IMG/VR virus record: IMGVR_UViG_3300021425_000008
Coordinates: 1-64,000 of that record
Strand: one strand, 5' to 3'
DNA length: 64,000 nt
Source: a virus
The first letter of the stretch is position 1. Every line of letters begins with the position of its first letter. This document shows positions 37,514 to 57,005 of the stretch, one piece after another. The position numbers and the translations under genes were made by a program. Under the pieces are notes generated by a model that saw only the letters and a program-made list of their open reading frames with translations, did no database searches and was not told where the DNA came from.

Positions 37514-40500
37514 ATGAGTATTCGTCAGGATGTCTTTGGATTAGAGACAGTTTATAGTCTTCAGATAGAAGGATTATGGAGTGTTAAACCTGATGTGTGG
37601 TTAAGTCCAAGTCCATTTTTTGGATCTTGGGAGTATGGTTACTTTGGTGGTTCTCCTTCATCATCAACAATAGACCGCATAGATTACTCTAACGATACAG
37701 CAACAGCATCAGTAAGAGGACCATTAAGTATTGATAGATATCAATTATCGGCAACAGGCAATGCTTCTTATGGTTATTTTGGTGGTGGTGGTAGTCCTGG
37801 ATTATCAATAGTAGACCGTATAGATTACTCCAATGACACTGCAACAGCATCAGTAAGAGGTTCATTAAGTATTGGTAGAAGACTTTCATCTGCAACAGGT
37901 AATGCTTCTTTTGGTTACTTTTCAGGTGCTATTCCTGCAAAATCAACAGTAGACCGTATAGATTACTCTAATGATACCGCAACAGCATCAGTAAGAGGAC
38001 CATTAAGTTCTACTAGATATGGTGCAGCAGGAACAGGAAATCAATCATTTGGTTACTTTGGTGGTGGTGGTCCTGGTCCAAAGTCAACAGTAGACCGTAT
38101 AGATTACTCTAATGATACAGCAACAGCATCACCAAAAGGACCACTAAGTCTTGCTAGAATTGGTTTAGCAGCAACAGGTAATAGTTCCTTTGGTTACTTT
38201 GGTGGTGGTGGTCCTAGTCCAGAATACTCAACAGTAGACCGTATTGATTACTCTAATGATACGGCAACAGCATCACCAAAAGGACCATTAAGTATTATTA
38301 GAGATTTATTAGCAGCAACAGGTAATGCTTCTTATGGTTATTTTGGTGGAGGAAGTTTTCCCCCATTAACAACAGTAGACCGTATAGATTACTCTAATGA
38401 TACTGCAACAGCATCACCAAAAGGTCCATTGAGTCTTGGTAGAGAGGGTCCAGCAGCATCAAGTGCCAAAGCAAACGCAATTACTGATTTAACAGTAATT
38501 CCAGCATCAACACCAAGACCAACAGAAAGTCCCATTGGTTATGATACTGGGTATTTTGGTGCTGGTCGTCCAGCAGGACCTGGAACATCAACAGTAGATC
38601 GTATTGATTACTCTAACGATACAGCAACAGCATCACCTAAAGGACCATTAAGTGTTGCCAGGGCAATGTTAGCAGCAACAGGTAATAGTTCTTTTGGTTA
38701 TTTTGGTGGTGGTTTTCCTGCTACATCATCAATAGTAGATCGGATTGATTATTCTAATGATACTGCCACTGCAGCACCAAAAGGACCATTAAGTGTGACT
38801 AGACATAATTTAGCAGCAACAGGTAATCAATCATTCGGTTACTTTGGTGGTGGTCGTGCTCCATCAGCATCATCATCAATAGACCGTGTTGATTATTCTA
38901 ATGATACTGCCACTGCAGCATCAAAAGGACCATTAACTTCTGTTAGATATTCTTTCGCAGCAACAGGTAATCAATCATTCGGTTACTTTGTTGGTGGTCG
39001 TCCTTCTCCCAATAAATCATCAGTAGACCGTGTTGATTATTCTAATGACACAGCAACAGCATCACCTAAGGGTCCATTGAGTGATGTTAGGTATGATATG
39101 GCAGCAACGGGTAATGCTGACTTTGGTTACTTTGGTGGTGGTGAAGTCGTAAACACAACTTCAACAGTAGATCGAGTTGATTATTCTAATGATACTGCAA
39201 CGGCAGTAGCAAAAGGTCCATTATCTGATGGTAGATATTCTTTAACAGCAACAGGTAATCAATCATTCGGTTACTTTGGTGGTGGTGTTGCTGCTCCAGG
39301 TCATAGATCAAATATAGACCGTATTGATTACTCTAATGATACTGTTACTGCATCACCTAAGGGTCCATTAACTGCTACAAAATATAAGTTTGCAGCATCA
39401 AGTTCAAGAGCAAATGCACTTCCAACAACAGAAACTGTATTAGTAGCACCTCCAGGACCCACAAACTTTGCAACTGGTGCAGTAGAAACCTTCCAAACTG
39501 GATACTTTGGTGGAGGTCAAGGTCCATACACATCAACAGTAGACCGTGTTGATTACTCTAATGACACGGCAACAGCATCAGTAAAAGGTCCATTGAGTCT
39601 TGCTAGAGCAGCACTAGCAGCAACAGGTAATGCTTCTTATGGTTACTTTGGTGGTGGTCAACCTGGTACAGTATCAACAGTAGACCGTATTGATTACTCT
39701 AATGATACAGCAACAGCATCACCTAAAGGACCATTAAGTTCTAACAGACAATATATGGGAGCAACAGGTAATGCTTCTTATGGTTACTTTGGTGGTGGTC
39801 TTGTAACATCAGTAGTAGACCGTATAGATTACTCTAATGACACTGCAACAGCATCACCAAAAGGTCCATTGAGTGTTGCTAGACAACAATTAGCAGCAAC
39901 AGGTAACCAAAACTTTGGTTACTTTGGTGGTGGTCAAAATCCTGGTGGTAATCTATCAACTGTAGACCGTATTGATTATAGTAATGACACTGCAACAGCA
40001 TCACCTAAAGGACCATTAAGTCTTGCTAGAAGATATCTAGCAGCAACAGGTAGCAGTTCATTTGGTTACTTTGGTGGTGGTTTTCCTGGTCCCATATCAA
40101 CAATAGACCGTATTGATTACTCTAATGACACTGCAACAGCATCACCTAAGGGTCCATTAAGTCTTGCTAGATATGGTTTAGGAGCAACTGGTAGTGCTTC
40201 TTTCGGTTATTTTGGTGGTAGTGCTCCATCAGCATCATCAACAGTAGACCGTATAGACTACTCTAATGATACCGCAACAGCAGCACCAAAAGGACCATTG
40301 AGTTCTGTTAGACAAGATATGGGAGCATCAAGCGCAAGAGCCAACGGATTTGCCGCAATTGATACTACATTACCACCAGCAAACTCACCAGTCCAAAACT
40401 TCCCAGTAACACTCTTTGGTTACTTTGGTGGTGGTGCTCCAGGTCCAGTATCAACAGTAGACCGTATCAATTATGCAAATGACACAGCAACAGCATCACC

Positions 40501-41293
40501 TAAAGGTCCATTAAGTGGTACTAAACAGGGTACAATGGCAACAGGTAATAGTTCTTATGGTTACTTTGGTGGCGGTAATCCATATGTATCAACAGTAGAC
40601 CGAATAGATTACTCTAATGATACGGCAACAGCATCTCCTAAAGGTCCATTGACTGCTGTTAAGGGATTTGGATCTGCAACAGGTAATAGTTCCTTTGGTT
40701 ACTTTGGTGGTGGAGTTAGTCCTGCTTTTAGTCCATCTACCATATCTTCAGTAGACCGCATAGATTATTCTAATGATACAGCAACAGCATCACCTAAGGG
40801 ACCATTAAGTCTTGCCAGACATTACTTAGCAGCAACAGGAAATCAATCTTATGGTTACTTTGGTGGTGGTAATGGTCCATTCTCAACAGTAGACCGTATT
40901 GATTACTCTAATGACACCGCAACAGCATCACCTAAAGGACCATTAAGTGTGGCTAGATATAATGTAGCAGCAACAGGTAATGCTTCTTATGGGTGGTTTG
41001 GTGGTGGTTTTACTCCCAGCCATAGATCAATAGTAGACCGTATTGATTACTCTAACGACACTGCTACAGCATCACCAAGAGGTCCATTAAGTTTTGATAA
41101 AAGTGCTTCAGGAGCAACAGGAAATTCTTTCTTTGGTTACTGGGGTGGTGGAGGTCAAGGAATTCCTCTATCATTAGTAGACCGTATTGATTATTCTAAC
41201 GATACAGCAACAGCATCACCTAAAGGAGCATTGAGTCTTGCTAGAGTATACTTAGCAGCAACCTCAGCAGCAGCAAACGGATTGCCACAATAA
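37514..41293 (+). CDS. giant kelch-like repeat adhesin A (1259 aa, 24 repeats)
   Basis: N-terminal anchor of about 40 residues (GLWSVKPDVWLSPSPFFGSW), then 24 repeats of 45-50 residues with consensus GYFGGG-variable loop-STVDRIDYSNDTATASPKGPLS, then AATGN. Three longer linkers (beginning ASSAKAN, ASSSRAN and ASSARAN) divide them into four blocks of exactly six. The C-terminus is LAATSAAANGLPQ. The repeat length and GG turns suggest four six-bladed beta-propellers. Only the loop after GGG and the segment after LS vary, as expected for a binding surface. It is probably a distal fibre or adhesin. Paralogues lie at 44904 and 51161. Confidence 0.75.
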   Translation: MSIRQDVFGLETVYSLQIEGLWSVKPDVWLSPSPFFGSWEYGYFGGSPSSSTIDRIDYSNDTATASVRGPLSIDRYQLSATGNASYGYFGGGGSPGLSIVDRIDYSNDTATASVRGSLSIGRRLSSATGNASFGYFSGAIPAKSTVDRIDYSNDTATASVRGPLSSTRYGAAGTGNQSFGYFGGGGPGPKSTVDRIDYSNDTATASPKGPLSLARIGLAATGNSSFGYFGGGGPSPEYSTVDRIDYSNDTATASPKGPLSIIRDLLAATGNASYGYFGGGSFPPLTTVDRIDYSNDTATASPKGPLSLGREGPAASSAKANAITDLTVIPASTPRPTESPIGYDTGYFGAGRPAGPGTSTVDRIDYSNDTATASPKGPLSVARAMLAATGNSSFGYFGGGFPATSSIVDRIDYSNDTATAAPKGPLSVTRHNLAATGNQSFGYFGGGRAPSASSSIDRVDYSNDTATAASKGPLTSVRYSFAATGNQSFGYFVGGRPSPNKSSVDRVDYSNDTATASPKGPLSDVRYDMAATGNADFGYFGGGEVVNTTSTVDRVDYSNDTATAVAKGPLSDGRYSLTATGNQSFGYFGGGVAAPGHRSNIDRIDYSNDTVTASPKGPLTATKYKFAASSSRANALPTTETVLVAPPGPTNFATGAVETFQTGYFGGGQGPYTSTVDRVDYSNDTATASVKGPLSLARAALAATGNASYGYFGGGQPGTVSTVDRIDYSNDTATASPKGPLSSNRQYMGATGNASYGYFGGGLVTSVVDRIDYSNDTATASPKGPLSVARQQLAATGNQNFGYFGGGQNPGGNLSTVDRIDYSNDTATASPKGPLSLARRYLAATGSSSFGYFGGGFPGPISTIDRIDYSNDTATASPKGPLSLARYGLGATGSASFGYFGGSAPSASSTVDRIDYSNDTATAAPKGPLSSVRQDMGASSARANGFAAIDTTLPPANSPVQNFPVTLFGYFGGGAPGPVSTVDRINYANDTATASPKGPLSGTKQGTMATGNSSYGYFGGGNPYVSTVDRIDYSNDTATASPKGPLTAVKGFGSATGNSSFGYFGGGVSPAFSPSTISSVDRIDYSNDTATASPKGPLSLARHYLAATGNQSYGYFGGGNGPFSTVDRIDYSNDTATASPKGPLSVARYNVAATGNASYGWFGGGFTPSHRSIVDRIDYSNDTATASPRGPLSFDKSASGATGNSFFGYWGGGGQGIPLSLVDRIDYSNDTATASPKGALSLARVYLAATSAAANGLPQ
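37634..41255 (+). repeat. 24 tandem coding repeats (about 140 bp) in adhesin A
   Basis: Near-identical DNA units built on tcaacagtagaccgtattga and gcaacagcatcacctaaagg, with hypervariable stretches between. Block limits are about 37634-38455, 38550-39394, 39500-40325 and 40415-41255. Confidence 0.9.
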
Positions 41294-41296
41294 ATA
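41290..41296 (+). promoter_or_regulatory. late promoter (ATAAATA) over the adhesin A stop codon
   Basis: Contains the TAA of adhesin A and lies 23 bp before the glycosyltransferase ATG at 41320. Confidence 0.6.
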
Positions 41297-41319
41297 GTCA
41301 AAACAACTAAAACTACACT

Positions 41320-41973
41320 ATGAGTCTAATGATTGCTCTCCCCTGTCATGGGGGAATTGTGAGTGAAAAAACAACAATGAGTTTATTCAATCTGGGTAAA
41401 CTCTTAGTAAGAAATAATATTCCTCACGGTCTTCTCACACAGGCAAACTCTTCTCTAATCACACAAGGAAGATCCAAGTGTGCTAATTTCTTCCTCAACA
41501 ACACAGAGCACGAATATCTTTTCTTCTTAGACAGTGATATTGGTTTTAATCCAGAAGATGTATTAAAACTACTCTCACATCAGGTGGATATTGTTTCTGG
41601 TGCATATCCAATGAAAACAATACCAATTCGTTATTGTTACGATACAATTCAACCAGAGCAACGCAAAGGAGATTTGGTTAAAATAGAAGGAAATGGAATG
41701 GGATTTGTTCTCATTCATCGTAATGTATTCTTGAATATGGCACAAAACTTTCCAGACCTCAAATACATTCCACCAACAAATGACAGTAATCATCCACCAT
41801 CACAGGCAGAGATGAATAATTCATATCACTACTTTATGGAGCACAAGGAAAATCAGTCCTTTATGAGTGAGGACAAAAGTTTCTTTTTTCGTGCTAGAAT
41901 GTTAGGATATGATGTCTGGTTAGATACATCAATCAAATTACAACACGTTGGTTCACATATTTTTGCTGAGTAA
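41320..41973 (+). CDS. GT-A glycosyltransferase-like protein (217 aa)
   Basis: The fold signature is a nucleotide-sugar-binding start (LMIALPCHGGIVSEKTTMSL), the metal-binding DxD motif FFLDSDIGF (Asp71, Asp73), then VDIVSGAYPMK and the acceptor-side EDKSFFFRARMLGYDVWLDT ending in QHVGSHIF. It should transfer a sugar from a nucleotide-activated donor; the acceptor is unknown. Its place directly after adhesin A suggests it glycosylates the fibre or another surface component. Confidence 0.85.
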   Translation: MSLMIALPCHGGIVSEKTTMSLFNLGKLLVRNNIPHGLLTQANSSLITQGRSKCANFFLNNTEHEYLFFLDSDIGFNPEDVLKLLSHQVDIVSGAYPMKTIPIRYCYDTIQPEQRKGDLVKIEGNGMGFVLIHRNVFLNMAQNFPDLKYIPPTNDSNHPPSQAEMNNSYHYFMEHKENQSFMSEDKSFFFRARMLGYDVWLDTSIKLQHVGSHIFAE

Positions 41974-41975
41974 TT

Positions 41976-44378
41976 ATGAAGTCTGGAGCAACTGAAAGTT
42001 CATTTCATTATCTTTCACAATATTATGAGTTTCCTGAAGAGGTAGAAGTCTCACATCTACCAGAGGAACTTAAAAAGTCTAGTAAACCATACAAAGTCTT
42101 ATGGGCACATCATGCTTATGATCAACCTGCATTTCTAAATTTCAATCATGAGACGGTAACTCACATTGTGACACCATCTCACTGGGCAAAGGAACAATTG
42201 ATCAAGTTTCATAATGTTCCTAAGAATAAAATTACTGTAATTTCAAATGGTGTGAATGATATCTTCACCTATTCTGAAAACAAAACAAAGACTTTTATTC
42301 ATACTTCTATTCCTTACAAAGGTTTAGAACTGATGCCTTCTATTATACAGAGAATTCAACAGAAGCATCCTGATGCAAAGTTTAAAATCTTTTCATCAAT
42401 GTCACTGTATGGTCCTCTGAATGATCCTTATCTTGAATTGTATGAGGATCTGAAGAAACTTCCTAATGTAGAATACTCTGCGGCAGTAGACCAAGAAGAA
42501 CTTGTTTCTGCCTATCAAGAATCTGCTTTCTTCATTCATCCAAACATTTGGGAAGAGACCTTCTGTGTATCAATGGCAGAGGCAATGAAGTCTGGTGCCT
42601 ATCCAATCATTACAAACATTGGAGCACTACAAGAAGTTGCAGGAGAAAACTTTGCATCCGTTGTACCGATTGAGGGCAACCGCACAGCAAAAGGATATCA
42701 GGTTACAGAGAACTTCCTAAATACATTTGCAGAGGTTTGTTGTACTGCTCTAGATTATTTTGACAGGGACATAACATATTATAATCAAATCTCAAAATCA
42801 CTTTCCAATCATATTTCACAGAAGTGTGACTGGAAGAAAGTTGCAAACCAGTGGGAAAAACTCATCAATACTGTTTGTAATCCTAATGTATTTTTTAGGG
42901 AAAATAGTGTTGATAAGTCAATTTATGATGAAGTTTATATTCAAAATGTTTATGAAATTGAAAACCTGAATGAAGATGATGTCATTATTGATATTGGTGC
43001 TCACTGTGGATATTTTTCCAAACTTTGTTTAGATAAGGGAAGTAAAAATGTAATTTCCTATGAGGCAGATGAAAGTAATTACCAATGTTATTTGAAAAAT
43101 CTATCCAAATATCAAGGATGGAAATGTCATAATATTGCCGTTTGGAAAAAATCTTGTGATGAAGTTCCCTTTTATACCTATCCTCACAGTGAAAATACAG
43201 GATTAAATTCTTTCTACAAGAATCCTTATATGAATTCTTATGAGGAAACAAAGGTAAAAACAATTTCTTTGGATGATATTTTATCTTCATATGATAAAAT
43301 CAAAATTTTGAAGATTGATGCAGAAGGAAGTGAGTATGATATTCTTATGAATTCAACATCAATTCAAAAAATTGAAAGTATTGTTGGAGAATATCATAAT
43401 GATATGACTGACAAAACTATGAGTGATTTGAAAACATATTTGGAAACTCAAAACTTTGTCATATACAAAACAGTTAAATACAATGAAACAAGTGGTTTAT
43501 TTTTTGCAAAACACAAGTCTAAAATGAATGGAGAAACTATGACTATTGAAAATACTGCACTGACTTATCAACCCGTTTCGGCAGAACAAGCAGTAATGGA
43601 TGATGATTATCTTCGTAAGGCATTTGATAATGTCATGAAATGGGAAGAAAGTGATAAAGAACTCGCACAAGGCAGAACTAATTTCCAGTTGGAAAAGTTT
43701 GCTCTGCTTGAAACTCATACACTTCCTGTTGCCTTTGAGAACACTCTGAAGTCCCGTCGTCAGATGGCAGAAGGTTATATGTATAAACTCATTGAGATGA
43801 AAGAAAAAGTCCGTGAGTTTGAGTACAAGTGGAAAGACCAAGATCGCACACAACCAATCTTCTGGGAAGAATCTGGTCCTGGTGGCGGATCAAAGAAACT
43901 TTGTTGGTTTGACCTGGATGAACTGGCACTGACTCATTACCTGAAGTCTTGTGAGTTAGAAATTCGTGACCGTCTTTTCCAAATGGAGCATCTGGATAAG
44001 ATTCTTGCCAAACTTGTAGAAGAAAATGGTGGTAAACCAGTCAGTAGAGAGCAGTTCCTGGAAGGTGACGCTCTGTATTGGGAGCGTCGTTTTGCTGATC
44101 AGGCAATGGATGAAATGGTTGCTGCACAGACTGGTATTTCCATTGGCAATCTTCACAGTATGCGTCGTGCTTCTGCACCTTCCATTGTTGATAAGAGAAA
44201 TGAATTACCAGAAGGATATCTGCCATTGAATAAGATGCTTGAAAGTCCTCAAGGTAAGATGGAATTCTTGAATGATCTGCAGAAAAAAGTTCTCACTGGT
44301 ATTCAAGAAGTCACTGGTGAAAATCTGGGTATGATTACTGGAAGTACAGAGGAGCAAAAGAAACTGGAAGGTAACTGA
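41976..44378 (+). CDS. GT-B glycosyltransferase - FkbM methyltransferase fusion (800 aa)
   Basis: Three parts. Residues about 30-300 are a GT4-type glycosyltransferase (ITVISNGVNDIFT; ESAFFIHPNIWEETFCVSMA; EAMKSGAYPIITN). Residues about 315-510 are an FkbM methyltransferase with the SAM-binding VIIDIGAHCGYFSKLCLDKG and the later KILKIDAEGSEYDIL. Residues about 515-800 are a helical charged region with no recognised fold. An O-methylated glycan is a reasonable product. The C-terminal domain could tether the enzyme to its substrate or the virion. Starts 2 bp after the preceding stop. Confidence 0.85.
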   Translation: MKSGATESSFHYLSQYYEFPEEVEVSHLPEELKKSSKPYKVLWAHHAYDQPAFLNFNHETVTHIVTPSHWAKEQLIKFHNVPKNKITVISNGVNDIFTYSENKTKTFIHTSIPYKGLELMPSIIQRIQQKHPDAKFKIFSSMSLYGPLNDPYLELYEDLKKLPNVEYSAAVDQEELVSAYQESAFFIHPNIWEETFCVSMAEAMKSGAYPIITNIGALQEVAGENFASVVPIEGNRTAKGYQVTENFLNTFAEVCCTALDYFDRDITYYNQISKSLSNHISQKCDWKKVANQWEKLINTVCNPNVFFRENSVDKSIYDEVYIQNVYEIENLNEDDVIIDIGAHCGYFSKLCLDKGSKNVISYEADESNYQCYLKNLSKYQGWKCHNIAVWKKSCDEVPFYTYPHSENTGLNSFYKNPYMNSYEETKVKTISLDDILSSYDKIKILKIDAEGSEYDILMNSTSIQKIESIVGEYHNDMTDKTMSDLKTYLETQNFVIYKTVKYNETSGLFFAKHKSKMNGETMTIENTALTYQPVSAEQAVMDDDYLRKAFDNVMKWEESDKELAQGRTNFQLEKFALLETHTLPVAFENTLKSRRQMAEGYMYKLIEMKEKVREFEYKWKDQDRTQPIFWEESGPGGGSKKLCWFDLDELALTHYLKSCELEIRDRLFQMEHLDKILAKLVEENGGKPVSREQFLEGDALYWERRFADQAMDEMVAAQTGISIGNLHSMRRASAPSIVDKRNELPEGYLPLNKMLESPQGKMEFLNDLQKKVLTGIQEVTGENLGMITGSTEEQKKLEGN

Positions 44379-44911
44379 TGAACCAAAAGTTTATGATTAT
44401 TGATGACTTTTATGATATTGCACATCAGTATCATCAAAGTTTCTTTAGTAAACAGTGTATGATAACTGAAGAGACTACTCAAAAACTTTCTTATATTTTG
44501 AGTAGTCCTGTGGAAATTGTAGAAGCATTCAATGAAGTTACATTTGAGAATACTGCAAATCCAATTACTGCGAATACTGCTTGTGATTGGATTGCTGTGA
44601 TTTATCTTACAATGCCACCTGATTGTGTATCAAAGAAAGGACTGAGTTTTTACAGTCATAAGAAAACAGGACTTGATAGTTTTCCAAATGAATATGCCTG
44701 TCAAATCAATGGTTGGCAGAATATGGATGATATTGTCAAGTCCTTTGATGTAAGTGATAAGAATGAATGGGAAGAATATGCAAATGTGTTTGTAAAATAT
44801 AATCGTTGTGTGATTTTTCGTGCTGATTATTGGCATTCTTATGGTAATGGTTTTGGTAGTGAAATAAATAACTCAATGCTATACCAGAAGTTGCTGATAA
44901 AAAATGCCTAG
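44378..44911 (+). CDS. degenerate 2OG-oxygenase-like protein (177 aa)
   Basis: It aligns by eye with the protein at 48701: IIDDFYDIAHQ / VVDDFYSNPQE, CDWIAVIYLTMPPDCV / WEWGAVIYMSSPEDCV and YNRCVIFRADYWHSYG / YNRLVLFRTHLWHSHN. Where the paralogue has the metal ligands HVD, this one has TAN, so iron binding is probably lost, though the distal His remains. It may be an inactive partner or bind something else. It overlaps the methyltransferase gene by one base and adhesin B by 8 bp. Confidence 0.65.
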   Translation: MNQKFMIIDDFYDIAHQYHQSFFSKQCMITEETTQKLSYILSSPVEIVEAFNEVTFENTANPITANTACDWIAVIYLTMPPDCVSKKGLSFYSHKKTGLDSFPNEYACQINGWQNMDDIVKSFDVSDKNEWEEYANVFVKYNRCVIFRADYWHSYGNGFGSEINNSMLYQKLLIKNA

Positions 44912-47900
44912 TCCAAGAGGGATATTTCGACTTAAGCAAGTCTATGAGGATCAGTTAAGTGATAACTGGTCTGTTAAAACTGATGTATGGTTAAGTCCAA
45001 GTCCATTTTTTGGATCTTGGGATTATGGTTACTTTTTTGGTGGTGGTCCAGCATTTTATGGACAAACTTCTGCTGATCGTATTGATTTTTCTAATGATAC
45101 TGCTACTGCTACCCTAAAATCTGGAATTTTTGATACAAATAGTGGAACAAAGCAATGGGGTGCTGCAAGTAGTTCTACTGCATCTTATCTTGCCGGTGGT
45201 TATTTTCCAGCAAATACCGACATAAGAAAATTTAACTTTGCTAATGAAACTTCTTCAGTATTGACAACTGCATCACTAGCAACACCAGTTCCAGGATCTT
45301 ATTATGTTACTGGAACTGGAAACCAAAATTTTGGGTATTTTTCTAGTGGAGAAACTGCGACAACAATAGTAACTCGTGTTGATTATTCTAATGATACTTC
45401 AACAAGTGTAGGCAATCTTTCTTTTAGCAGCAGGAGGTCTACTGCAACTGGCAATCAGTCTTATGGATACTTTGGTGGTGGTCTTACAGTATCAACAGTA
45501 GACCGTATTGATTACTCCAATGACACTGCAACTGCATCACCAAAAGGACCATTAAGTGCTGCTAGAGGACAATTAGCAGCAACAGGTAATGCTTTTTATG
45601 GTTACTTTGGTGGTGGTGGTCCTACGTTATCAACAGTAGACCGTATAGATTATTCTAATGATACTGCTACGGCATCACCTAAGGGACCATTGAGTGTTGC
45701 CAGACGTAGTTTAGCAGCAACAGGTAATTCTTCTTATGGATACTTTGGTGGTGGCATTCCATCATCAATAGTAGACCGTATTGACTATTCTAATGACACT
45801 GCAACTGCATCTCCAAAAGGACCATTAAGTGTTGTTAGAGAAGACCCAGGTGCTGGAAGTGCTAAGGCAAACGGAATCACAGATCTGACATTATTGCCAG
45901 CATCAAGCGAGAGACCTAATGCAACACCACAAGGATATGATACTGGTTATTTTGGTGGTGGTGTTTCTCCTGGTGCATCATCAAGAGTAGACCGTATTGA
46001 TTATTCTAATGATACCGCAACAGCATCACCAAAAGGACCGTTAAGTGTTGCTAGATATAATTTAGCAGCAACAGGTAACCAAAACTTTGGTTACTTTGGT
46101 GGTGGTGATCTTTCAAAATCAACAGTAGACCGTATTGATTACTCCAACGATACTGCAACAGCATCACCAAAAGGACCATTGAGTGAAGCTAGACCCGACG
46201 TAGAAGCAACAGGTAATAGTAATTTTGGTTACTTTGGTGGTGGTTCTGGGTATCCTGCTCCTGCATATGCTACTTCTTTAATAGATCGTGTAGATTATTC
46301 TAATGATACTGCCACTGCATCACCAAAAGGTAATTTGAGTGTAATAAGACAAGGTGCTGGAGCAACAGGTACTCAATCTTTTGGTTACTTTGCGGGTGGA
46401 TTTAGTGGTCCTAGTGCAACATCAACAACAGATCGTGTTGATTATTCTAATGACACCGCAACAGCAGTGCTGAAAGGTAATTTAAGTAGTGCTAAAAATT
46501 CAACTGGAGCAACAGGAAACTCTTCTTTCGGTTACTTTGCTGGTGCTTCTTCTTATATTACAACAGTTGATCGTCTTGATTACTCTAGTGATACAACAGC
46601 AATGTCACCTAAGGGTTCACTAAGTACTGCTAGAGGAAGTATGGGAGCAACAGGAAGTGCTTCCTTTGGTTACTTTGCTGGTGGACAAACTACTGGTGGT
46701 CCCAGAATTTCAACAATAGATCGTGTAGACTATTCCAACGATACTGCAACAGCATCACCTAAGGGTTTACTTAATGCTAATGTGTCTGGTATGGGAGCAT
46801 CAAGTTCCAGAGCAAATGCAATACCACTCAAAGGACCTGGTGTTCTGTCCCAACCATTTAACCTTGCAACTGGTGCTGTAGAAACCTTTAATACTGGTTA
46901 CTTTGGTGGTGGTCAACCTTCTCCAAACTCAACAGTAGACCGTATTGATTACTCTAATGATACTGCTACTGCATCACCTAAAGGTCCATTAAGTTTTACT
47001 AGCAGAGACTTGTCAGCAACAGGTAATGCTAATTTTGGTTACTTTGGTGGTGGTTATACTCCTGCTCCATTCTCAACAGTGAGTCGTATAGATTACTTGA
47101 ATGATACAGCAACAGCAGTAGCAAAAGGACCATTGAGCACAACAAAACTTAGAACTGGAGCAACAGGTAATGCTTCATTTGGTTACTTTGGTGGTGGTCA
47201 AAATCCTGGTGGTAATCTATCAACTGTAGACCGTATTGATTATAGTAATGACACTGCAACAGCATCACCTAAAGGACCATTAAGTGATGCCAGGACAGCA
47301 CTGTCAGCAACGGGTAATCAGGATTTTGGTTACTTTGGTGGTGGGGAAAGTCCTGGTGATGTTTCAACAGTAGATCGTGTTGATTATTCTAATGATACTG
47401 CAACGGCAGTAGCAAAAGGACCACTGAGTGTTGCCTCATTAAGATTCGGAGCAACAGGTAATAGTTCTTTTGGTTACTTTGCCGGTGGATTTAGTCCTAC
47501 TATATCAACAGTAAGTAGAATTGACTATAGTAATGATACTGCAACAGCATCACCAAAAGGTCCATTAAGTGCTGCTAAAGGATATGCTGCTGCTACAGGA
47601 GATAGTTCTTTTGGATACTTTGCTGGTGGAGTTACACCTGCTATAATATCAACAATAGACCGTATTGATTATTCGAATGATACAGCAACGGCATCTCCTA
47701 AAGGGTCATTAAGTTCTACTAGGGGAAATCATGCAGCATCATCCGCAAGAGCAAACGGATTTGCCGCAGTCGGTCCAGCAGTAACAGCAAACTCACCAGT
47801 CCAAAACTTCCCAGTAACATTCTTTGGTTATTTTGGTGGTGGTTTTTCTCCTGCTACTGTATCAATAATAGACCGTATTAATTATACTAATGATACTGTA

Positions 47901-48680
47901 ACAGCCTCAGTAAGAGGATCATTAAGTGTTGGTAAGTATGGTGTAGCAGCAACAGGTAACAGTTCTTATGGTTACTTTGGTGGTGGTTTTCCTGGACCAT
48001 TATCAACAGTAGACCGTATAGATTACTCTAATGATACCGCAACAGCATCACCAAAAGGACCATTAAGTCTTGCTAGAAATTACTTAGCAGCAACAGGTAA
48101 TGGTTCTTTTGGTTACTTTGGTGGTGGTAGTCCAACATTATCAACAGTAGACCGTATTGATTACTCTAATGATACCGCAACAGCATCACCTAAGGGACCA
48201 TTGAGTTCTGCTAGAGAGTTTTTAGCAGCAACAGGTAATGCTTCTTTTGGTTACTTTGGTGGTGGTAGTCCTACAACATCAGTAGTAGACCGCATTGATT
48301 ACTCCAATGATACTGCAACAGCATCACCTAAAGGACCATTGAGTGTTGCTAGGGGATATACTGGAGCAACAGGTAATGGTTCTTTTGGTTACTTTGGTGG
48401 TGGTCTTCCTTCGGGAGCAACAGTAGACCGTATAGATTATTCTAATGACACAGCAACAGCATCACCTAAGGGTCCATTGAGTCTTGCTAGAAATGGTTTA
48501 GCAGCAACAGGTAATAGTTCCTTTGGTTATTTTGGTGGTGGTGGTCCTGGTCCAAGATCAACAGTAGATCGTATTGATTACTCTAACGATACAACAACAG
48601 CATCAGTAAAAAGTCCATTGAGTCTTGCTAGACAATACTTAGCAGCAACCTCAGCAGCAGCAAACGGATTGCCACAATAA
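44904..48680 (+). CDS. giant kelch-like repeat adhesin B (1258 aa, 24 repeats)
   Basis: Same architecture as adhesin A: anchor (NWSVKTDVWLSPSPFFGSWD), four blocks of six repeats separated by linkers, and the identical C-terminus LAATSAAANGLPQ. The first three repeats of block 1 are the most diverged (for example TASYLAGGYFPANTDIRKFN). The others are close to the consensus STVDRIDYSNDTATASPKG. Length differs from A by one residue. One repeat shares 108 identical bases with A, including its variable loop, evidence of recombination between the genes. An alternative receptor-binding subunit is likely. Confidence 0.75.
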   Translation: MPSPRGIFRLKQVYEDQLSDNWSVKTDVWLSPSPFFGSWDYGYFFGGGPAFYGQTSADRIDFSNDTATATLKSGIFDTNSGTKQWGAASSSTASYLAGGYFPANTDIRKFNFANETSSVLTTASLATPVPGSYYVTGTGNQNFGYFSSGETATTIVTRVDYSNDTSTSVGNLSFSSRRSTATGNQSYGYFGGGLTVSTVDRIDYSNDTATASPKGPLSAARGQLAATGNAFYGYFGGGGPTLSTVDRIDYSNDTATASPKGPLSVARRSLAATGNSSYGYFGGGIPSSIVDRIDYSNDTATASPKGPLSVVREDPGAGSAKANGITDLTLLPASSERPNATPQGYDTGYFGGGVSPGASSRVDRIDYSNDTATASPKGPLSVARYNLAATGNQNFGYFGGGDLSKSTVDRIDYSNDTATASPKGPLSEARPDVEATGNSNFGYFGGGSGYPAPAYATSLIDRVDYSNDTATASPKGNLSVIRQGAGATGTQSFGYFAGGFSGPSATSTTDRVDYSNDTATAVLKGNLSSAKNSTGATGNSSFGYFAGASSYITTVDRLDYSSDTTAMSPKGSLSTARGSMGATGSASFGYFAGGQTTGGPRISTIDRVDYSNDTATASPKGLLNANVSGMGASSSRANAIPLKGPGVLSQPFNLATGAVETFNTGYFGGGQPSPNSTVDRIDYSNDTATASPKGPLSFTSRDLSATGNANFGYFGGGYTPAPFSTVSRIDYLNDTATAVAKGPLSTTKLRTGATGNASFGYFGGGQNPGGNLSTVDRIDYSNDTATASPKGPLSDARTALSATGNQDFGYFGGGESPGDVSTVDRVDYSNDTATAVAKGPLSVASLRFGATGNSSFGYFAGGFSPTISTVSRIDYSNDTATASPKGPLSAAKGYAAATGDSSFGYFAGGVTPAIISTIDRIDYSNDTATASPKGSLSSTRGNHAASSARANGFAAVGPAVTANSPVQNFPVTFFGYFGGGFSPATVSIIDRINYTNDTVTASVRGSLSVGKYGVAATGNSSYGYFGGGFPGPLSTVDRIDYSNDTATASPKGPLSLARNYLAATGNGSFGYFGGGSPTLSTVDRIDYSNDTATASPKGPLSSAREFLAATGNASFGYFGGGSPTTSVVDRIDYSNDTATASPKGPLSVARGYTGATGNGSFGYFGGGLPSGATVDRIDYSNDTATASPKGPLSLARNGLAATGNSSFGYFGGGGPGPRSTVDRIDYSNDTTTASVKSPLSLARQYLAATSAAANGLPQ
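45020..48645 (+). repeat. 24 tandem coding repeats (about 140 bp) in adhesin B
   Basis: Block limits about 45020-45850, 45945-46795, 46895-47735 and 47825-48645. Units are built on the same DNA core as adhesin A. Confidence 0.9.
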
Positions 48681-48683
48681 ATA
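48677..48683 (+). promoter_or_regulatory. late promoter (ATAAATA) over the adhesin B stop codon
   Basis: Contains the TAA of adhesin B. A second ATAAATA lies at 48690-48696, too close to the ATG at 48701 to leave a usual leader. Confidence 0.55.
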
Positions 48684-48700
48684 CTTCAAATAAATATATT

Positions 48701-49318
48701 ATGAGACAAAACATCATTGTTGTGGATGACTTCTACTCAAATCCACAAGAAGTTAGAGAGTTTGCACTCAAGGCAGAATATCCAGAACCAACAGACGACT
48801 ATACATATCCAGGAAGAAACTCAGAAGATTCTTATTATTCTCAAGACATTCATAAGTCCTTTGAGAATATCATCAAAGAACCACTCATACCAGCAGATAA
48901 GAATGGATATTTTCGCATCTCATTAGAAACTGATACTCATAAACAGGATGTTCATGTAGATCCATCTTGGGAATGGGGTGCCGTAATTTATATGTCATCA
49001 CCAGAAGATTGTGTTGATGAAGGTGGCACATCATTCTGGAAACATAATACTCTTCAGTCAGAAAACATTCCAAAGACTGATGAAGAAGCACAGTTTTATG
49101 GATATCCAACTTATAAAGAATGTTGGTGGACGACAGTATATGGTGATGGACTTGACAGAAATAAATGGACTCGTTACTTTCTGTGCCCGATGAGGTATAA
49201 TAGACTAGTATTATTTCGCACTCATTTGTGGCACTCTCATAATTTTAACTTTGGAAATACATTAGAAAACGGTAGATTGGTTCAGTTATTTTTCTTCAAT
49301 CCAGTCAAGGAGTGGTAA
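48701..49318 (+). CDS. 2OG-Fe(II) oxygenase-like protein (DUF6445 type, 205 aa)
   Basis: The metal-binding motif DVHVDPSWEWGAVIYMSS keeps His and Asp. The distal part has MRYNRLVLFRTHLWHSHNFN, with the expected His, and ends in QLFFFNP. The N-terminal IIVVDDFYSNPQEVREFALK is characteristic of this family. It appears to be the catalytically intact relative of the protein at 44378. Substrate unknown; hydroxylation of adhesin B or a sugar is inferred from position. Confidence 0.7.
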   Translation: MRQNIIVVDDFYSNPQEVREFALKAEYPEPTDDYTYPGRNSEDSYYSQDIHKSFENIIKEPLIPADKNGYFRISLETDTHKQDVHVDPSWEWGAVIYMSSPEDCVDEGGTSFWKHNTLQSENIPKTDEEAQFYGYPTYKECWWTTVYGDGLDRNKWTRYFLCPMRYNRLVLFRTHLWHSHNFNFGNTLENGRLVQLFFFNPVKEW

Positions 49319-49869
49319 TGAAACATAAGGTTTATATTTCTGGCACTGGACGATGTGGAACAACATTTCTTGTGATTATTCTTTCCTATCTTGGTCTTGA
49401 TACTGGATACACAAAAGAAACATTCACCAATCACATCTATGAAAACTGCAATTCTGGATTGGATAAACAATGGGATGATACACCATATATTCTAAAGTCC
49501 CCAGCATTTCTTAATCAAATGGATAGACTTCTGAATTCATTCATTATTGATTATATGATTATTCCAGTAAGAAAGTTTGAGGATTCGGCAAAGTCCAGAG
49601 CATTTCATAATCAACAACCAGGAGGATTGTGGGAGGCAAAAAATTATGAAGAACAACTTTCATTTTTTTATAAAATATTTGAGAACTATAAGAAACTAGA
49701 AAAAGAACATCATATACCAACAATCTATCTGGATTTTGATACAATGATATCATCACCAGAGTATCTTTATGAAAATCTAAAACCAATTCTCAAAGAAACT
49801 ACACTAGAACAATTCACAGGAGCATTTGAGTTTGCAACAAATCATCAAAGGAGAAAGAAAAATGTATAG
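49318..49869 (+). CDS. sulfotransferase-like P-loop protein (183 aa)
   Basis: ATG 49318 (overlapping the previous TAA, with AAGGAG just upstream) gives the start KHKVYISGTGRCGTTFL, whose P-loop-like GTGRCGTTF matches the 5'-phosphosulfate loop of PAPS-dependent sulfotransferases. IIPVRKFEDSAKSRAFH fits the 3'-phosphate-binding Arg/Ser region, and IYLDFDTMISSPEYLYENLK fits the later conserved segment. At 183 residues it is short for the family. It might instead be a kinase-like P-loop protein. It overlaps the next gene by 8 bp. Confidence 0.65.
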   Translation: MKHKVYISGTGRCGTTFLVIILSYLGLDTGYTKETFTNHIYENCNSGLDKQWDDTPYILKSPAFLNQMDRLLNSFIIDYMIIPVRKFEDSAKSRAFHNQQPGGLWEAKNYEEQLSFFYKIFENYKKLEKEHHIPTIYLDFDTMISSPEYLYENLKPILKETTLEQFTGAFEFATNHQRRKKNV

Positions 49870-50344
49870 TGCATATTATGTTCCAAAGTTTCCAGTTTCT
49901 TATATCACACAAGATGGAAGAGACCTGTGGATCAATAATCCAAATCATATAAAACATCAGTGTGGATTATTGCAAGCGATATTAGAGCACATAGATAATA
50001 CAAATCATATTGATCCAGTTCGTATTGTTATTCCAGTAGAAGGTCAGGTTCAGGCAGGACCAGCAGGAGTGCAGAGATTATATGCACTGACATATTTAAA
50101 AGGTCATACGCATGTCCCTGCAATTGTATCAACTCAAAAATTGTATGATTGGTTTGGTGAAGGTGTAGTAGAAATTAAAGATAAAGATCAACTTAGGTCA
50201 TATCTTTCAATAGAACCTGTTGATTATGGTATTGACCCTGATGGAAAAGCACACTGGCATAATCAAAATCCAAATGAAAAACAAATGAGAGAAACCCTTA
50301 AAGTATCTGAGAAAACATTAAATAAAATTTTGAAGTGTATATGA
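49862..50344 (+). CDS. ParB/sulfiredoxin-fold-like protein (160 aa)
   Basis: ATG 49862 follows AAAGGAGAAAG. The core VRIVIPVEGQVQAGPAGVQR leads into LYALTYLKGHTHVPAIV, a pattern like the ParB N-terminal (Srx-like) fold, which binds or hydrolyses nucleotides. No DNA-binding helix-turn-helix is clear, though a helical C-terminus exists (SEKTLNKILK). Its place between two sulfotransferase-like genes suggests it serves the modification pathway, but I cannot say how. Confidence 0.5.
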   Translation: MYSAYYVPKFPVSYITQDGRDLWINNPNHIKHQCGLLQAILEHIDNTNHIDPVRIVIPVEGQVQAGPAGVQRLYALTYLKGHTHVPAIVSTQKLYDWFGEGVVEIKDKDQLRSYLSIEPVDYGIDPDGKAHWHNQNPNEKQMRETLKVSEKTLNKILKCI

Positions 50345-51159
50345 AAAAATATCATTTTATGGCAGGACTTCCACGATCAGGAAGCACCTTATTGAAAAGT
50401 TTGATTGACCAGAACCCAAACATTCATACAGAACCTGTGAGTTCTGTGATGGAACTGATGTATCATACTGAAGAATATTTTAAGCATTCAGAACAATACT
50501 TAGGATATCCAAAACCACAGAATGCTCATAAGATCATCAGTAGTTTTATAGAGAATTATTATTACGAAAGAGAAGAAGATATTATTATAGATCACTGCCG
50601 TGCTTGGCCCAATAATATTGAAAGAATCAAAACTTATATCACACCCAATCCAAAGATTATCTGTCCTGTAAGAGACATCGCAGAAATTCTCACATCTTTT
50701 ATTACAATGGTGCATCGTAATGACGACCAAGTTTCATTTATAGATCAACACCTGATTGAAAAAGGTGTCACTGTGGATGATGATAATCGTTGTCAGTATT
50801 TGATGAGTGATGATGGGATTATAGAGCAAGCACTGTGGGCACAAAGTCAGGCATTTATCAAGAATGATACAAGACACTTATTGATGGTTGAATATAATGA
50901 CTTAGTGAATACTCCTGATGAAACGATGAGAAGGATTTATGATTTCTTAGAGATGGATGATTACGATCATAACTTCAAGAATGTGGAAAATCATCATCGT
51001 GAAAATGATGACCAATGGTATCTCAAGGATATGCACTATGTGAGAAAAGAAGTGAAAAAGACTTCTAAGAAGCCAGAGGATGTTTTGTCTCCTTACATTC
51101 TAAATAAGTATAAGAAACTGGAATACTGGAAGTATCCCGATAGTCCTTATTTAATATAA
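50341..51159 (+). CDS. sulfotransferase (272 aa)
   Basis: ATG 50341 overlaps the upstream stop (ATGA). The PAPS-binding loop is MAGLPRSGSTLLKSLID (P-loop at about residues 8-16). PKIICPVRDIAEILTSFITM gives the 3'-phosphate-binding Arg...Ser element. The later LLMVEYNDLVNTPDETMRRI and FLEMDDYDHNF are also typical. It would move sulfate from PAPS to a hydroxyl or sugar. It immediately precedes the single-repeat adhesin. Confidence 0.85.
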   Translation: MKKYHFMAGLPRSGSTLLKSLIDQNPNIHTEPVSSVMELMYHTEEYFKHSEQYLGYPKPQNAHKIISSFIENYYYEREEDIIIDHCRAWPNNIERIKTYITPNPKIICPVRDIAEILTSFITMVHRNDDQVSFIDQHLIEKGVTVDDDNRCQYLMSDDGIIEQALWAQSQAFIKNDTRHLLMVEYNDLVNTPDETMRRIYDFLEMDDYDHNFKNVENHHRENDDQWYLKDMHYVRKEVKKTSKKPEDVLSPYILNKYKKLEYWKYPDSPYLI

Positions 51160-51160
51160 G

Positions 51161-51445
51161 ATGGCAGTAACTAATAAAAGAGGAATATTCGCACTTTTAG
51201 ATGTAAGAGAACGACAGGCAACTGGAAATTGGCCTGTTAAACCTGATGTATGGTTAAGTCCTAGTCCTTTTACTTCTCCTTCTCCAAATACTGGTTACTT
51301 TGGTGGTGGTGCTCCTACAATATCAAGAGTAGACCGTATAGATTACTCTAATGACACTGCAACAGCATCAGTAAGAGGACCATTAAGTGTTGGTAGATAT
51401 TACTTAGCAGCAACCTCAGCAGCAGCAAACGGACTGCCACAATAA
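51161..51445 (+). CDS. mini-adhesin: anchor plus one repeat (94 aa)
   Basis: It has the same three parts as the giant adhesins: anchor (NWPVKPDVWLSPSPF), a single repeat (TGYFGGGAPTISRVDRIDYS and NDTATASVRGPLS) and the end YLAATSAAANGLPQ. All are intact, with a late promoter over the stop codon as in A and B. It looks like a collapse of the array by recombination between repeats, or a minimal donor copy. One blade cannot close a propeller, so it may oligomerise or cap the fibre base. Confidence 0.75.
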   Translation: MAVTNKRGIFALLDVRERQATGNWPVKPDVWLSPSPFTSPSPNTGYFGGGAPTISRVDRIDYSNDTATASVRGPLSVGRYYLAATSAAANGLPQ

Positions 51446-51448
51446 ATA
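51442..51448 (+). promoter_or_regulatory. late promoter (ATAAATA) over the mini-adhesin stop codon
   Basis: Contains the TAA of the mini-adhesin. 18 bp to the oxygenase ATG at 51467. Confidence 0.55.
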
Positions 51449-51466
51449 GTCAAAATCACATATATT

Positions 51467-52129
51467 ATGATTGAAAATCCATTATCATATATTCTTATTC
51501 GTCCTAATGTCATCAACTCACAAGGTCTTCAAGAACTTGTATCACATATCAAGTCGTCTCCAGCAGAAGATTTATCAGTCTTTGATCCAGACAAAACAAA
51601 TGCAACTGGAAAAACATCTTGGATTGTAGATAAACAAACCAGAGATACTCAAATCGTTCCAATGGGTCCTTTGTATCCTAAGATTGAGGACTTATTTCGT
51701 AATACAGTAAAGAATATCATCAATCCTTTCTATCAGGTAGAAGTGGATAGTAGTGAAATACCACAAGTATTATCTTATGGTATTGGTGGTCATTATCGTC
51801 CTCACATTGATGGTGAAAGTATTTGGATGACACCAAGAGGTGAAAAGATATGGAAAAAAAGTACGAACAGAGATTTATCCATAATTTTTTATTTGAACAA
51901 TGACTTTGAGGGTGGTGATTTTATTTTCCCAGAACTTAAGATAAGAATAAGACCAGAACCAGGTATGTTGGTTTGTTTTCCTTCTAATCATCATTATTCT
52001 CATGGAGTTGAGTCCGTTACCAAAGGTAAGAGGTATTCAATTGTCTCATGGGCAACTGTCAAAGGATTTCCATCTATGGATGATGTCAATCAACAACTCT
52101 CACAAGAGTATGGAGTTCCAGTCATATAA
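51467..52129 (+). CDS. 2OG-Fe(II) oxygenase, prolyl 4-hydroxylase-like (220 aa)
   Basis: The HxD motif is GGHYRPHIDGES (His113, Asp115). DLSIIFYLNNDFEGGDFIFP gives the beta-helix strand with the usual EGGxF signature. MLVCFPSNHHYSHGVESVTK gives the distal His, and GKRYSIVSWATV contains the 2-oxoglutarate-binding Arg. Prolyl hydroxylation is the commonest role for this subfamily. The adhesin loops contain prolines (GPGPKS, GPSPEY), which makes them plausible but unproven targets. Last gene of the cassette. Confidence 0.85.
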   Translation: MIENPLSYILIRPNVINSQGLQELVSHIKSSPAEDLSVFDPDKTNATGKTSWIVDKQTRDTQIVPMGPLYPKIEDLFRNTVKNIINPFYQVEVDSSEIPQVLSYGIGGHYRPHIDGESIWMTPRGEKIWKKSTNRDLSIIFYLNNDFEGGDFIFPELKIRIRPEPGMLVCFPSNHHYSHGVESVTKGKRYSIVSWATVKGFPSMDDVNQQLSQEYGVPVI

Positions 52130-52153: not shown

Positions 52154-52540
52154 ATGAAATATCTCAAGCACTACTGGATTTGTGTTCATTCTGGCAATTA
52201 TATGTGTGGAAATAATCCAGTTGAAAAGAGACATCCAGAAGCAGAGTTTCCTGGTCTTGATGTAAGAATCTGGATGAACGATGAAGATGGAATTGATGTA
52301 TGTCTTTCCAGAGTTCCTGATACAACAACGATTACTGATATTGTAAATCCTGATAATGGTAAGAAGGTCGTTCAGGAATTGACCGAAGCAGAATTCAATT
52401 CAGTTCAAACTCCACTTACTGAGTCACAAACACTTCGTCAGCAAGCACAACAAGAGACTGATGAGGTTCTTAAGGCAGACCTAGAGGCACAAGCAGATGC
52501 TAAGTTTGAGGAAGCAAGACAGGCACTTTTTGCTCTTTGA
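52154..52540 (+). CDS. hypothetical protein (128 aa)
   Basis: The N-terminal part has KHYWICVHSGNYMCGNNPVE with two Cys. The C-terminal third is a Gln/Glu/Ala-rich helix (QTLRQQAQQETDEVLKADLE), probably a coiled coil. No named domain recognised. It could be a fibre chaperone, since small helical proteins often follow fibre genes, but this is inference only. A terminator follows. Confidence 0.6.
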   Translation: MKYLKHYWICVHSGNYMCGNNPVEKRHPEAEFPGLDVRIWMNDEDGIDVCLSRVPDTTTITDIVNPDNGKKVVQELTEAEFNSVQTPLTESQTLRQQAQQETDEVLKADLEAQADAKFEEARQALFAL

Positions 52541-52610: not shown

Positions 52611-52946
52611 ATGGCAGTCCCAGTAGTAAATTTAACTATTGATAAAGGCACTGATTTTGAAGCAACTTTTACTGTCACTAATTCTGATGGTTCTATTTTT
52701 TCTTTGACAAATTATAGTGCAACATCAAAAGTAAGAAAACATCCAACTGCAGCAGAATTTAAATCATTTTCAACAACAGTTACTGTTGCAACTGGACAAA
52801 TTAAAATATCAATGGGATCTACAGTGACTGCTGAGTTAGATGAAGGTAGAAATTATTATGATATAATAATTACTCAATCAGGTACAGGAAAAATTGTAAA
52901 AGTATTTGAAGGTATGGCTATTGTATCTAATACGGTATCTTTATGA
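52611..52946 (+). CDS. beta-rich structural protein (111 aa)
   Basis: It reads as an Ig-like or BppU-like beta domain: NLTIDKGTDFEATFTVTNSD, SATSKVRKHPTAAEFKSFST, then GRNYYDIIITQSGTGKIVKV. Small proteins of this type are virion or baseplate components in many phages. It has its own late promoter, which supports a structural role. The end overlaps a 20-residue ORF by four bases. Confidence 0.6.
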   Translation: MAVPVVNLTIDKGTDFEATFTVTNSDGSIFSLTNYSATSKVRKHPTAAEFKSFSTTVTVATGQIKISMGSTVTAELDEGRNYYDIIITQSGTGKIVKVFEGMAIVSNTVSL

Positions 52947-55736: not shown

Positions 55737-56349
55737 TGAGACAAAGATTACCAAAGGATATAATTCCATGGATGCCATGGGTTGTATGTTGGTGAGAGAT
55801 TGTAAAGAAGATGTAGAAGAAGTTCATAGTCTTTTGGATATTTCCTCACAGTATCCTAATACTGCGGAGTTTACATCATCTGCATACGAATTCAACACAA
55901 TGTTGATGACACTCAAACGTATGGGTGTCAAAGTATATCTTGCAGATCAAAGATATTTCCCGATCATGCATCGTGGCGTATATCACACGGTAAGTAACAA
56001 CATCTATCTCAATCGTAGATACATGGGTGAACCAAATGTATTGATGCAATTGATGAGACATGAAGGGTGGCATGCTGCTCAGGATTGTATGGCTGGTACT
56101 ATTAAAAATAGTATGATCGCTATTATCAAACCAGAAGATGAAGTTCCCATGATTTGGCGTGTCATGGCTGAACGAACTTATCCTGCCTCAGCTGTACCCT
56201 GGGAGGCAGAAGCACAATGGGCTGGACGTACTGAAGGTATGACACAAAATGCTCTTAATGCGTGCGCAAATGGTAAAATGTGGGAGGTATTCGAGCCAAC
56301 GCCAATGACCCGTGAATGGTTAGAAAAAAACAATTACATCAAGAACTAA
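55672..56349 (+). CDS. secreted zinc metalloprotease-like protein (225 aa)
   Basis: Residues 1-21 are a cleavable signal peptide (basic start, hydrophobic LLGLSLLIVPP, cut after AMA). The zincin site is MRHEGWHAAQDC (HExxH), and about 50 residues later a Glu in VPWEAEAQWAGR can be the third zinc ligand, as in gluzincins. Four or five Cys suit an oxidising compartment. It should act in the periplasm or outside the cell. It resembles the protein at 62144 in layout (signal peptide, HExxH, QDC). It may loosen the envelope or help exclude other phages; unproven. Confidence 0.75.
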   Translation: MMKIRNVLLGLSLLIVPPAMADETKITKGYNSMDAMGCMLVRDCKEDVEEVHSLLDISSQYPNTAEFTSSAYEFNTMLMTLKRMGVKVYLADQRYFPIMHRGVYHTVSNNIYLNRRYMGEPNVLMQLMRHEGWHAAQDCMAGTIKNSMIAIIKPEDEVPMIWRVMAERTYPASAVPWEAEAQWAGRTEGMTQNALNACANGKMWEVFEPTPMTREWLEKNNYIKN

Positions 56350-57005
56350 TGAAAATCTTTTTAGACACAGCAGACACAGAAATCATCAAAAAGTATTGGT
56401 CTACTGGACTGATTGATGGTATCACTACAAATCCATCTCTGATTATGAAGAGTGGTCGTAATCCTGAGGATGTATATCAAGAACTCGTGGATCTTGGTGT
56501 ACCTGACATCAGTATGGAAGTTGTTGGATCTGACCTTGAAATGTATGACGAAGGTATTCGTCTGTACGAAAAGTTTGGTCCTGTATGTACTGTCAAGGTT
56601 CCATGTACCCGTGAGGGACTCATCGTATGTAAGCGATTGTCTGAACAAGGTATCAAAGTGAATGTCACCTTGATCTTCTGTGCAGCACAGGCAGTTCTTG
56701 CGGCGAAGGCTGGTGCAACTTATGTGTCACCATTCGTAGGACGATTGGACGATCAATCTGTCGCTGGTCTTGAAGTTGTACGTTCAATCTTTGAACTGTA
56801 TCGTATTCACGGTATTCGTACTCAGGTATTATCTGCATCGATTCGTAGTGTTCAACGTGCAATTCGTTCTTGGTACAATGGTGCTGAAATCTGTACGATG
56901 CCACCTAAAGTTTTTGATCAAATGTATGATCACATTCTTACCGATAAAGGTCTAGAAATCTTTGATAAGGATTGGAAAGAAGTATGTGGAGAATCTGGAG
57001 TCTAG
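56349..57005 (+). CDS. talC: transaldolase TalC
   Basis: 218 aa from ATG 56349, the short TalC/fructose-6-phosphate aldolase-like form. The landmarks are KIFLDTADTEIIKKY, GITTNPSLIMKSGR and TVKVPCTREGL, with the Schiff-base Lys83, then NVTLIFCAAQAVLAAKAGAT and SPFVGRLDD. In cyanophages it shifts host carbon from the Calvin cycle to the pentose phosphate pathway, supplying NADPH and ribose for phage DNA. It overlaps the previous stop by one base and the next gene by 22 bp. Confidence 0.95.
   Translation: MKIFLDTADTEIIKKYWSTGLIDGITTNPSLIMKSGRNPEDVYQELVDLGVPDISMEVVGSDLEMYDEGIRLYEKFGPVCTVKVPCTREGLIVCKRLSEQGIKVNVTLIFCAAQAVLAAKAGATYVSPFVGRLDDQSVAGLEVVRSIFELYRIHGIRTQVLSASIRSVQRAIRSWYNGAEICTMPPKVFDQMYDHILTDKGLEIFDKDWKEVCGESGV

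Follow-up and report, generated by a model that had tools for sequence, protein, structure and literature searches.

The cassette at 37514–52129, in which three paralogous repeat proteins alternate with predicted glycosyltransferases, oxygenases and a sulfotransferase, raises the question of what these enzymes act on: the repeat proteins encoded beside them, or other targets such as the surface glycans of the host. The window, i.e., the whole stretch of DNA analysed here, covers the first 64 kb of an IMG/VR virus record of 141,061 bp. All genes of the cassette lie on its + strand, and the open reading frames of the cassette and their order agree with those listed in an earlier note on this DNA.

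Genomic context of the cassette

The backbone of the window matches the Synechococcus myoviruses S-B05, RN05-S, RB11-B and S-B43 at approximately 76–78%, counting the matching pieces only. Tail-fibre genes lie directly upstream of the cassette, the PHROG matches flanking it comprise a baseplate wedge tail fiber protein connector and tail fiber proteins, and a homologue of the L-shaped tail fiber assembly protein was found downstream at 52611. We consider it probable that the source is a T4-like cyanophage and that the locus unites receptor-binding fibres and their own modification enzymes in one cassette.

The content of the same slot differs among these phages. It is almost empty in S-B05, contains many other fibre genes in RN05-S and holds a sugar-biosynthesis cluster without kelch genes in S-B43; thus, the slot is a hot spot. 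As S-B43 and RN05-S carry other genes in this position, not all related phages have the cassette. The S-B43 cluster speaks for one alternative to self-modification, namely that the enzymes target host surface glycans or a glycan off the kelch chains (e.g., in a superinfection block), the kelch proteins being ordinary receptor-binding fibres that share a late-gene module with them. The receptor-region hot spot was seen by comparing the slot at 37514–52129 with the loci L004, L005 and L006.

The repeat proteins are chains of kelch-like propellers

The three chains were previously described as adhesins (an inferred name) with 24, 24 and 1 repeats and with shared anchors and C-termini. These features were all recovered; the anchor is N-terminal, and the common C-terminus has the final residues AATSAAANGLPQ. 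Although the count of 24 was correct, the repeats of the two long chains are not an undifferentiated series; they are kelch-like blades of ~47 aa, arranged in four groups of six with a longer linker after each sixth blade. Chain A (37514–41293; 1259 aa) begins with an anchor of class D (37514–37636; ~41 aa), containing two short predicted helices, followed by propellers 1 to 3 at 37637–38470, 38549–39424 and 39500–40357 (ends approximate) and by propeller 4 with the shared C-terminus at 40418–41290. Chain B (44904–48680; 1258 aa) combines a class R anchor with four six-bladed propellers starting near 45027, 45945, 46896 and 47826. Chain C (51161–51445) consists of a class L anchor, one blade and the shared C-terminus.

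Our analyses showed that in both chain A and chain B, four six-bladed kelch-like propellers are strung together on a common anchor of ~41 aa. In phmmer, the designed six-bladed kelch propellers SAKe6 matched at 8.7e-11, and an hmmsearch with the profile of the chain family also found KLHL12 (6e-8). The AlphaFold2 model of the anchor and propeller 1 of chain A, with 39 sequences in the alignment, had a pLDDT of 87.3 and a pTM of 0.84, and Foldseek gave TM(target) values of 0.77–0.91 to Keap1, KLHL12 and SAKe6 among the best 50 matches. Exactly 6, 12, 18, 24, 30 or 36 blades were counted in 94 of 102 unique complete anchored relatives; those off the multiples include several with 16–17 blades and wide gaps, in which a diverged blade was probably missed, a frame-broken ORF of phage S-SKS1, and the single-blade chains of the window (chain C) and L073. 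The model, the structural matches and the multiples of six agree in indicating six four-stranded blades that close into a propeller.

The phage chains have the fold, the six blades, the GG doublet and the D-x-x-T turn in common with Keap1, KLHL12 and the SAKe designs, but they differ from them in carrying a phage anchor and up to six propellers per chain. As neither chain A nor chain B matches Pfam Kelch, and the usual Trp after the D-x-x-T turn is absent (the turn reads NDTATAS), kelch-like is the accurate term. An N-glycosylation sequon was considered for the repeated N-[DE]-T and rejected, as this motif falls on the kelch D-x-x-T turn and the fold would explain it.

Chain C has one blade and therefore cannot close a propeller; it may be the remnant of a deletion or have collapsed in the assembly. 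One-blade or remnant copies were also found in L073, L008 and L044. Long repeats are prone to assembly error, which could account for chain C; according to one long-read study, kelch repeats were nine times more abundant than in assembled data (PMC9238414).

Anchors are short and differ in sequence between classes, and the anchor used alone had no tblastn match in named phages; slot and genome were not separated by comparing the best hits of anchors and of propellers. Paralogues within a genome had equal numbers of propellers in 136 of 162 pairs, compared with 36 in shuffles, relatedness being ignored. When the comparison was restricted to anchor classes in 8 genomes, equal numbers were found in 8 of 16 pairs versus 4.7 (p 0.06); as this class-controlled test is non-significant, co-assembly of paralogous chains is left as a hint. 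In L154, L156, L159 and L223 (one contig of 348 kb), several single-propeller (six-blade) kelch genes occur around the same enzymes.

Two variable loops, probably on one face of the propellers

Across 48 blades of chains A, B and C and those of 44 genomes, variation is concentrated after the GYFGGG motif (the A-B loop, which varies in length too) and around the Arg of LSxxRxxL (the C-D loop). Per-position entropy within the 44 genomes is high at profile positions 7–12 and 35–40, whereas the two opposite loops have low values. The topology of a four-stranded antiparallel blade would place the A-B and C-D loops on one face. Framework residues are kept although synonymous codons differ, which is expected of purifying selection and not of very recent copying. 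Diversification of the chains by a diversity-generating retroelement (DGR) was rejected, as the 141-kb record, possibly incomplete, contained no reverse transcriptase (RVT_1).

Proline accounts for 17.5% of the residues in the A-B loops, and Pro-Gly occurs 272 times compared with 120 expected in shuffles. Judged from the sequences, the Pro-Gly richness of these loops fits a prolyl-hydroxylase substrate; it may also be a plain turn preference of the fold.

Enzymes encoded in the cassette

The first enzyme, a GT-A-like glycosyltransferase (41320–41973), has a Pfam score under the cut-off (E 0.03), but its DSD motif (D71, D73) is invariant among relatives. The adjacent gene (41976–44378) had been taken for a two-domain fusion. 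Its GT-B (PF00534, 1.7e-12) and FkbM methyltransferase domains (42990–43457; PF05050, 2.5e-12; also TIGR01444, E 8e-23) are both present, but the protein has a third, C-terminal domain of ~285 aa (43521–44375) that is all-helical and for which S-SKS1 (SWZG_00290) and other relatives have a gene of its own. Among named phages, tblastn with the helical domain matched S-SKS1 and AG-345-L05 only, and its distant profile, phrog_1409, was found in S-SKS1 only, of seven records searched. The FkbM domain is a rare insertion: of 59 unique relatives, only a handful carry it; thus, O-methylation has a candidate enzyme here, but it is not a core part of the cassette.

Both DUF6445-type proteins had been recognized correctly. 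The second (DUF6445-2, 48701–49318) matches Pfam DUF6445 at 7.5e-14 (52.6 bits, cut-off 24) and has an invariant HxD (H85, D87) as well as an invariant His further along, within an HSH motif, while the first (DUF6445-1, 44378–44911) scores just under the cut-off (22.5 bits, 1.2e-4). The view of DUF6445-1 as degenerate did not hold: its whole family (15 sequences) has no conserved HxD, yet the distal His is kept and other residues are invariant, so it represents a retained non-canonical or inactive paralogue and not a decaying copy.

The prolyl-hydroxylase-like 2OG-Fe(II) oxygenase (51467–52129) was confirmed (PF13640, 1.6e-16). H113 and D115 of its HxD, the distal H179 and R189 are invariant in 19 sequences, giving the facial triad and the basic 2OG anchor. 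Among solved structures, prolyl 3- and 4-hydroxylases come closest (1.9e-12 and 2.9e-9), including enzymes of the collagen type; prolyl hydroxylation by the cassette enzyme is a prediction. The 2OG oxygenases of marine phages have been discussed in connection with 2-oxoglutarate metabolism and DNA repair (PMC3037559).

Of the two proteins called sulfotransferase-like, the one at 50335–51159 is a member of Sulfotransfer_3 (8e-18), whose PAPS-binding PRSGxT motif is conserved among relatives as GLPRSGST. The label of the other, a small ORF at 49312–49869, lacks profile support; this ORF had no meaningful match in Pfam, PHROG, NCBIfam or PDB, and its P-loop-like GTGRCGTTFL string is the sole feature in favour of the label. 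The ParB-like designation of the conserved ORF at 49862–50344 had to be dropped, as the same four databases gave no meaningful match; relatives of this ORF occur in 12 of the contig groups with kelch genes, where DUF6445-2 and the sulfotransferase typically flank it.

The nearest solved structures of the sulfotransferase are the protein-tyrosine sulfotransferases (TPST, 9e-9), but the cassette enzyme does not keep the GEETR segment of TPST, which we take to be the catalytic Glu region. The aligned segment reads HTEPVSPV, HSGPISPS and the like, with no conserved Glu; therefore, tyrosine is unsupported as the acceptor, and tyrosine sulfation was rejected.

Several of these results bear on the modification of host glycans. 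Glycan clusters commonly include GT-B and FkbM domains, the sulfotransferase weakly matches the nodulation protein NoeE, and a 31%-identical sulfotransferase of S-SRM01 is located within a sugar/glycosyltransferase cluster. Against this, the nearest solved relatives of two of the enzymes modify proteins, the cassette has no sugar-nucleotide synthesis genes, and close relatives of the enzymes keep company with propeller proteins, individual enzyme groups being tied to a specific kelch class (see below). Thus, modification of host or other glycans seems rather unlikely.

Linkage of the enzymes to kelch genes

The earlier note called for a search for the same alternation in other genomes and held that enzymes found without a repeat adhesin would speak against its proposal. 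Four enzymes were used as queries against IMG/VR, with 10-kb flanks inspected, and the enzymes accompany kelch chains across many viruses, the cassette being common to dozens of related ones. Kelch genes were found at 33 of 33 sulfotransferase loci, 64 of 69 loci of the GT-A subfamily (at least 58% identity), 54 of 58 DUF6445-2 loci and 57 of 62 loci of the prolyl-hydroxylase-like enzyme; these counts take in related contigs, several with more than one locus, and are therefore not independent. Kelch genes were missing only at contig ends, on a 4.5-kb contig, beside two matches of 25% identity and on one 88-kb contig (L160/L209); apart from this last contig, the association was upheld among close relatives on long-enough contigs. 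The six main enzymes and kelch genes occur together in nineteen contig groups.

At greater distance, none of eleven GT-A matches of at most 34% identity is accompanied by kelch genes, no kelch gene or anchor was found in 47 loci of bacterial sulfotransferase relatives (up to 43% identity), and distant relatives of the enzyme classes of the cassette occur in sugar clusters and in bacteria without kelch genes. In L299 and L302, bacterial sulfotransferase relatives lie beside ORFs that by eye resemble 2OG oxygenases and TonB receptors, possibly a parallel enzyme pairing in betaproteobacteria.

The 88-kb contig L160 (6702–9356 and 13656–17057) carries most of the enzyme set without typical kelch genes. 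Three proteins with the same anchor are encoded in L160/L209, one with divergent kelch-like repeats and two that by eye are FG-GAP-like. It seems from L160 that the anchor carries interchangeable propeller types.

Among deduplicated relatives, the sulfotransferase precedes class L anchors in 13 of 13 cases and DUF6445-1 precedes class R anchors in 9 of 9, whichever gene comes next. Given this fixed upstream partner of classes L and R, two groups of genes behave as movable units: DUF6445-2, the sulfotransferase and kelch-L form one, and GT-A, GT-B, the helical domain, DUF6445-1 and kelch-R form the other. In the window, the gene before chain A (class D) is the fibre gene FIB3, that before chain B (class R) is DUF6445-1, and that before chain C (class L) is the sulfotransferase.

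These observations also bear on hitchhiking, in which enzymes and kelch proteins would act separately and be co-exchanged as a block in a fibre-region recombination hot spot. The slot is indeed hypervariable between otherwise similar phages, and linked units can spread jointly without joint function, so the linkage could reflect a shared hot spot. However, the enzyme set persists although the order of the units is reshuffled and kelch numbers change, L160 keeps anchored propeller-like proteins of another type where kelch genes are lacking, and the cassette reaches divergent relatives, one of them on a 348-kb contig; hitchhiking is therefore very improbable.

Probable modification of the phage's own fibres

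The linkage among close relatives and the joint movement of enzyme and kelch genes both favour action on the phage's own fibres, while the distant relatives without kelch genes weigh against it. Of the explanations considered, decoration of the phage's own propeller fibres, as the earlier note proposed, is the likeliest and, on the genomic evidence, somewhat probable. The anchor would attach each kelch chain to the tail, the variable propeller faces would contact host receptors, and each enzyme group would modify its own kelch chain during assembly. DUF6445-2 and the sulfotransferase may act together, perhaps hydroxylating and then sulfating; the pairing of oxygenase and transferase suggests that conjugation follows a hydroxylation step. 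With help from the helical domain and the non-HxD DUF6445 paralogue, GT-A and GT-B would add a sugar, which in this genome might optionally be O-methylated by FkbM. The Pro-Gly-rich A-B loops would be the target of the prolyl-hydroxylase-like enzyme. The predicted result is a binding surface that is repeated along the chain and that owes its chemistry to the enzymes as well as to sequence.

The enzymes might instead modify the anchor or neighbouring fibre proteins (e.g., in cross-linking or fibre maturation). The anchor is the feature common to the kelch chains and the replacement proteins of L160, and FIB3 is often immediately upstream; however, the anchor is short and class-diverse, whereas Pro-Gly-rich loops and exposed loops rich in Tyr, Ser and Asn recur tens of times per chain. 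We regard this target as very unlikely.

A bolder extension of self-modification is that matched kelch-chain fibres are widespread, with paralogues of equal propeller number side by side and variable faces completed by hydroxylase, sulfotransferase and glycosyltransferase units; we put this forward tentatively, as a possibility that is on balance doubtful. If true, the fibres would carry a two-layer receptor-binding code of sequence and chemistry, and receptor binding would be tuned by enzymatic chemistry. Host recognition by cyanophages is poorly known, and a variable, modular scaffold for binding that is encoded with its own protein-modifying enzymes would help to explain the abundance of 2OG oxygenases in marine phages.

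Related systems and flanking genes

We found no report of this cassette in the open-licence literature. S-SKS1, whose recorded host is the laboratory strain WH7803, encodes the same type of chain (SWZG_00001, 00287, 00289 and 00291) beside a sulfotransferase, a prolyl-hydroxylase-like oxygenase and the helical domain; its kelch proteins differ in being annotated as hypothetical and in having broken reading frames, and no glycosyltransferase was found within the stretch NC_020851.1 188000–208007. In this stretch (L001), the kelch ORFs at 13817–17009 are frame-broken and partly unannotated (e.g., record positions ~201816–203180), and the prolyl-hydroxylase-like gene is split in two (SWZG_00285/00286); these breaks may be sequencing errors.

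The whole cassette is present in marine virus AG-345-L05 (Kyanoviridae, MH319754), a public single-cell record, with the units swapped; it differs in being unannotated, in having 12–18 detected blades per chain and in an extra sulfotransferase. Kelch propellers likewise occur in CBB, a jumbo enterobacterial phage; the kelch protein CBB_552 is present in its virion, but the portion of the paper seen reports no modification cassette (PMC5259590).

PADLOC gave no anti-phage defence match. Downstream of the oxygenase, a small ORF (52154–52540) was found in 61 of 96 kelch-bearing contig groups, and further downstream a gene at 56316–57005 appears by eye to be transaldolase-like (talC-type), which is typical of cyanophages.
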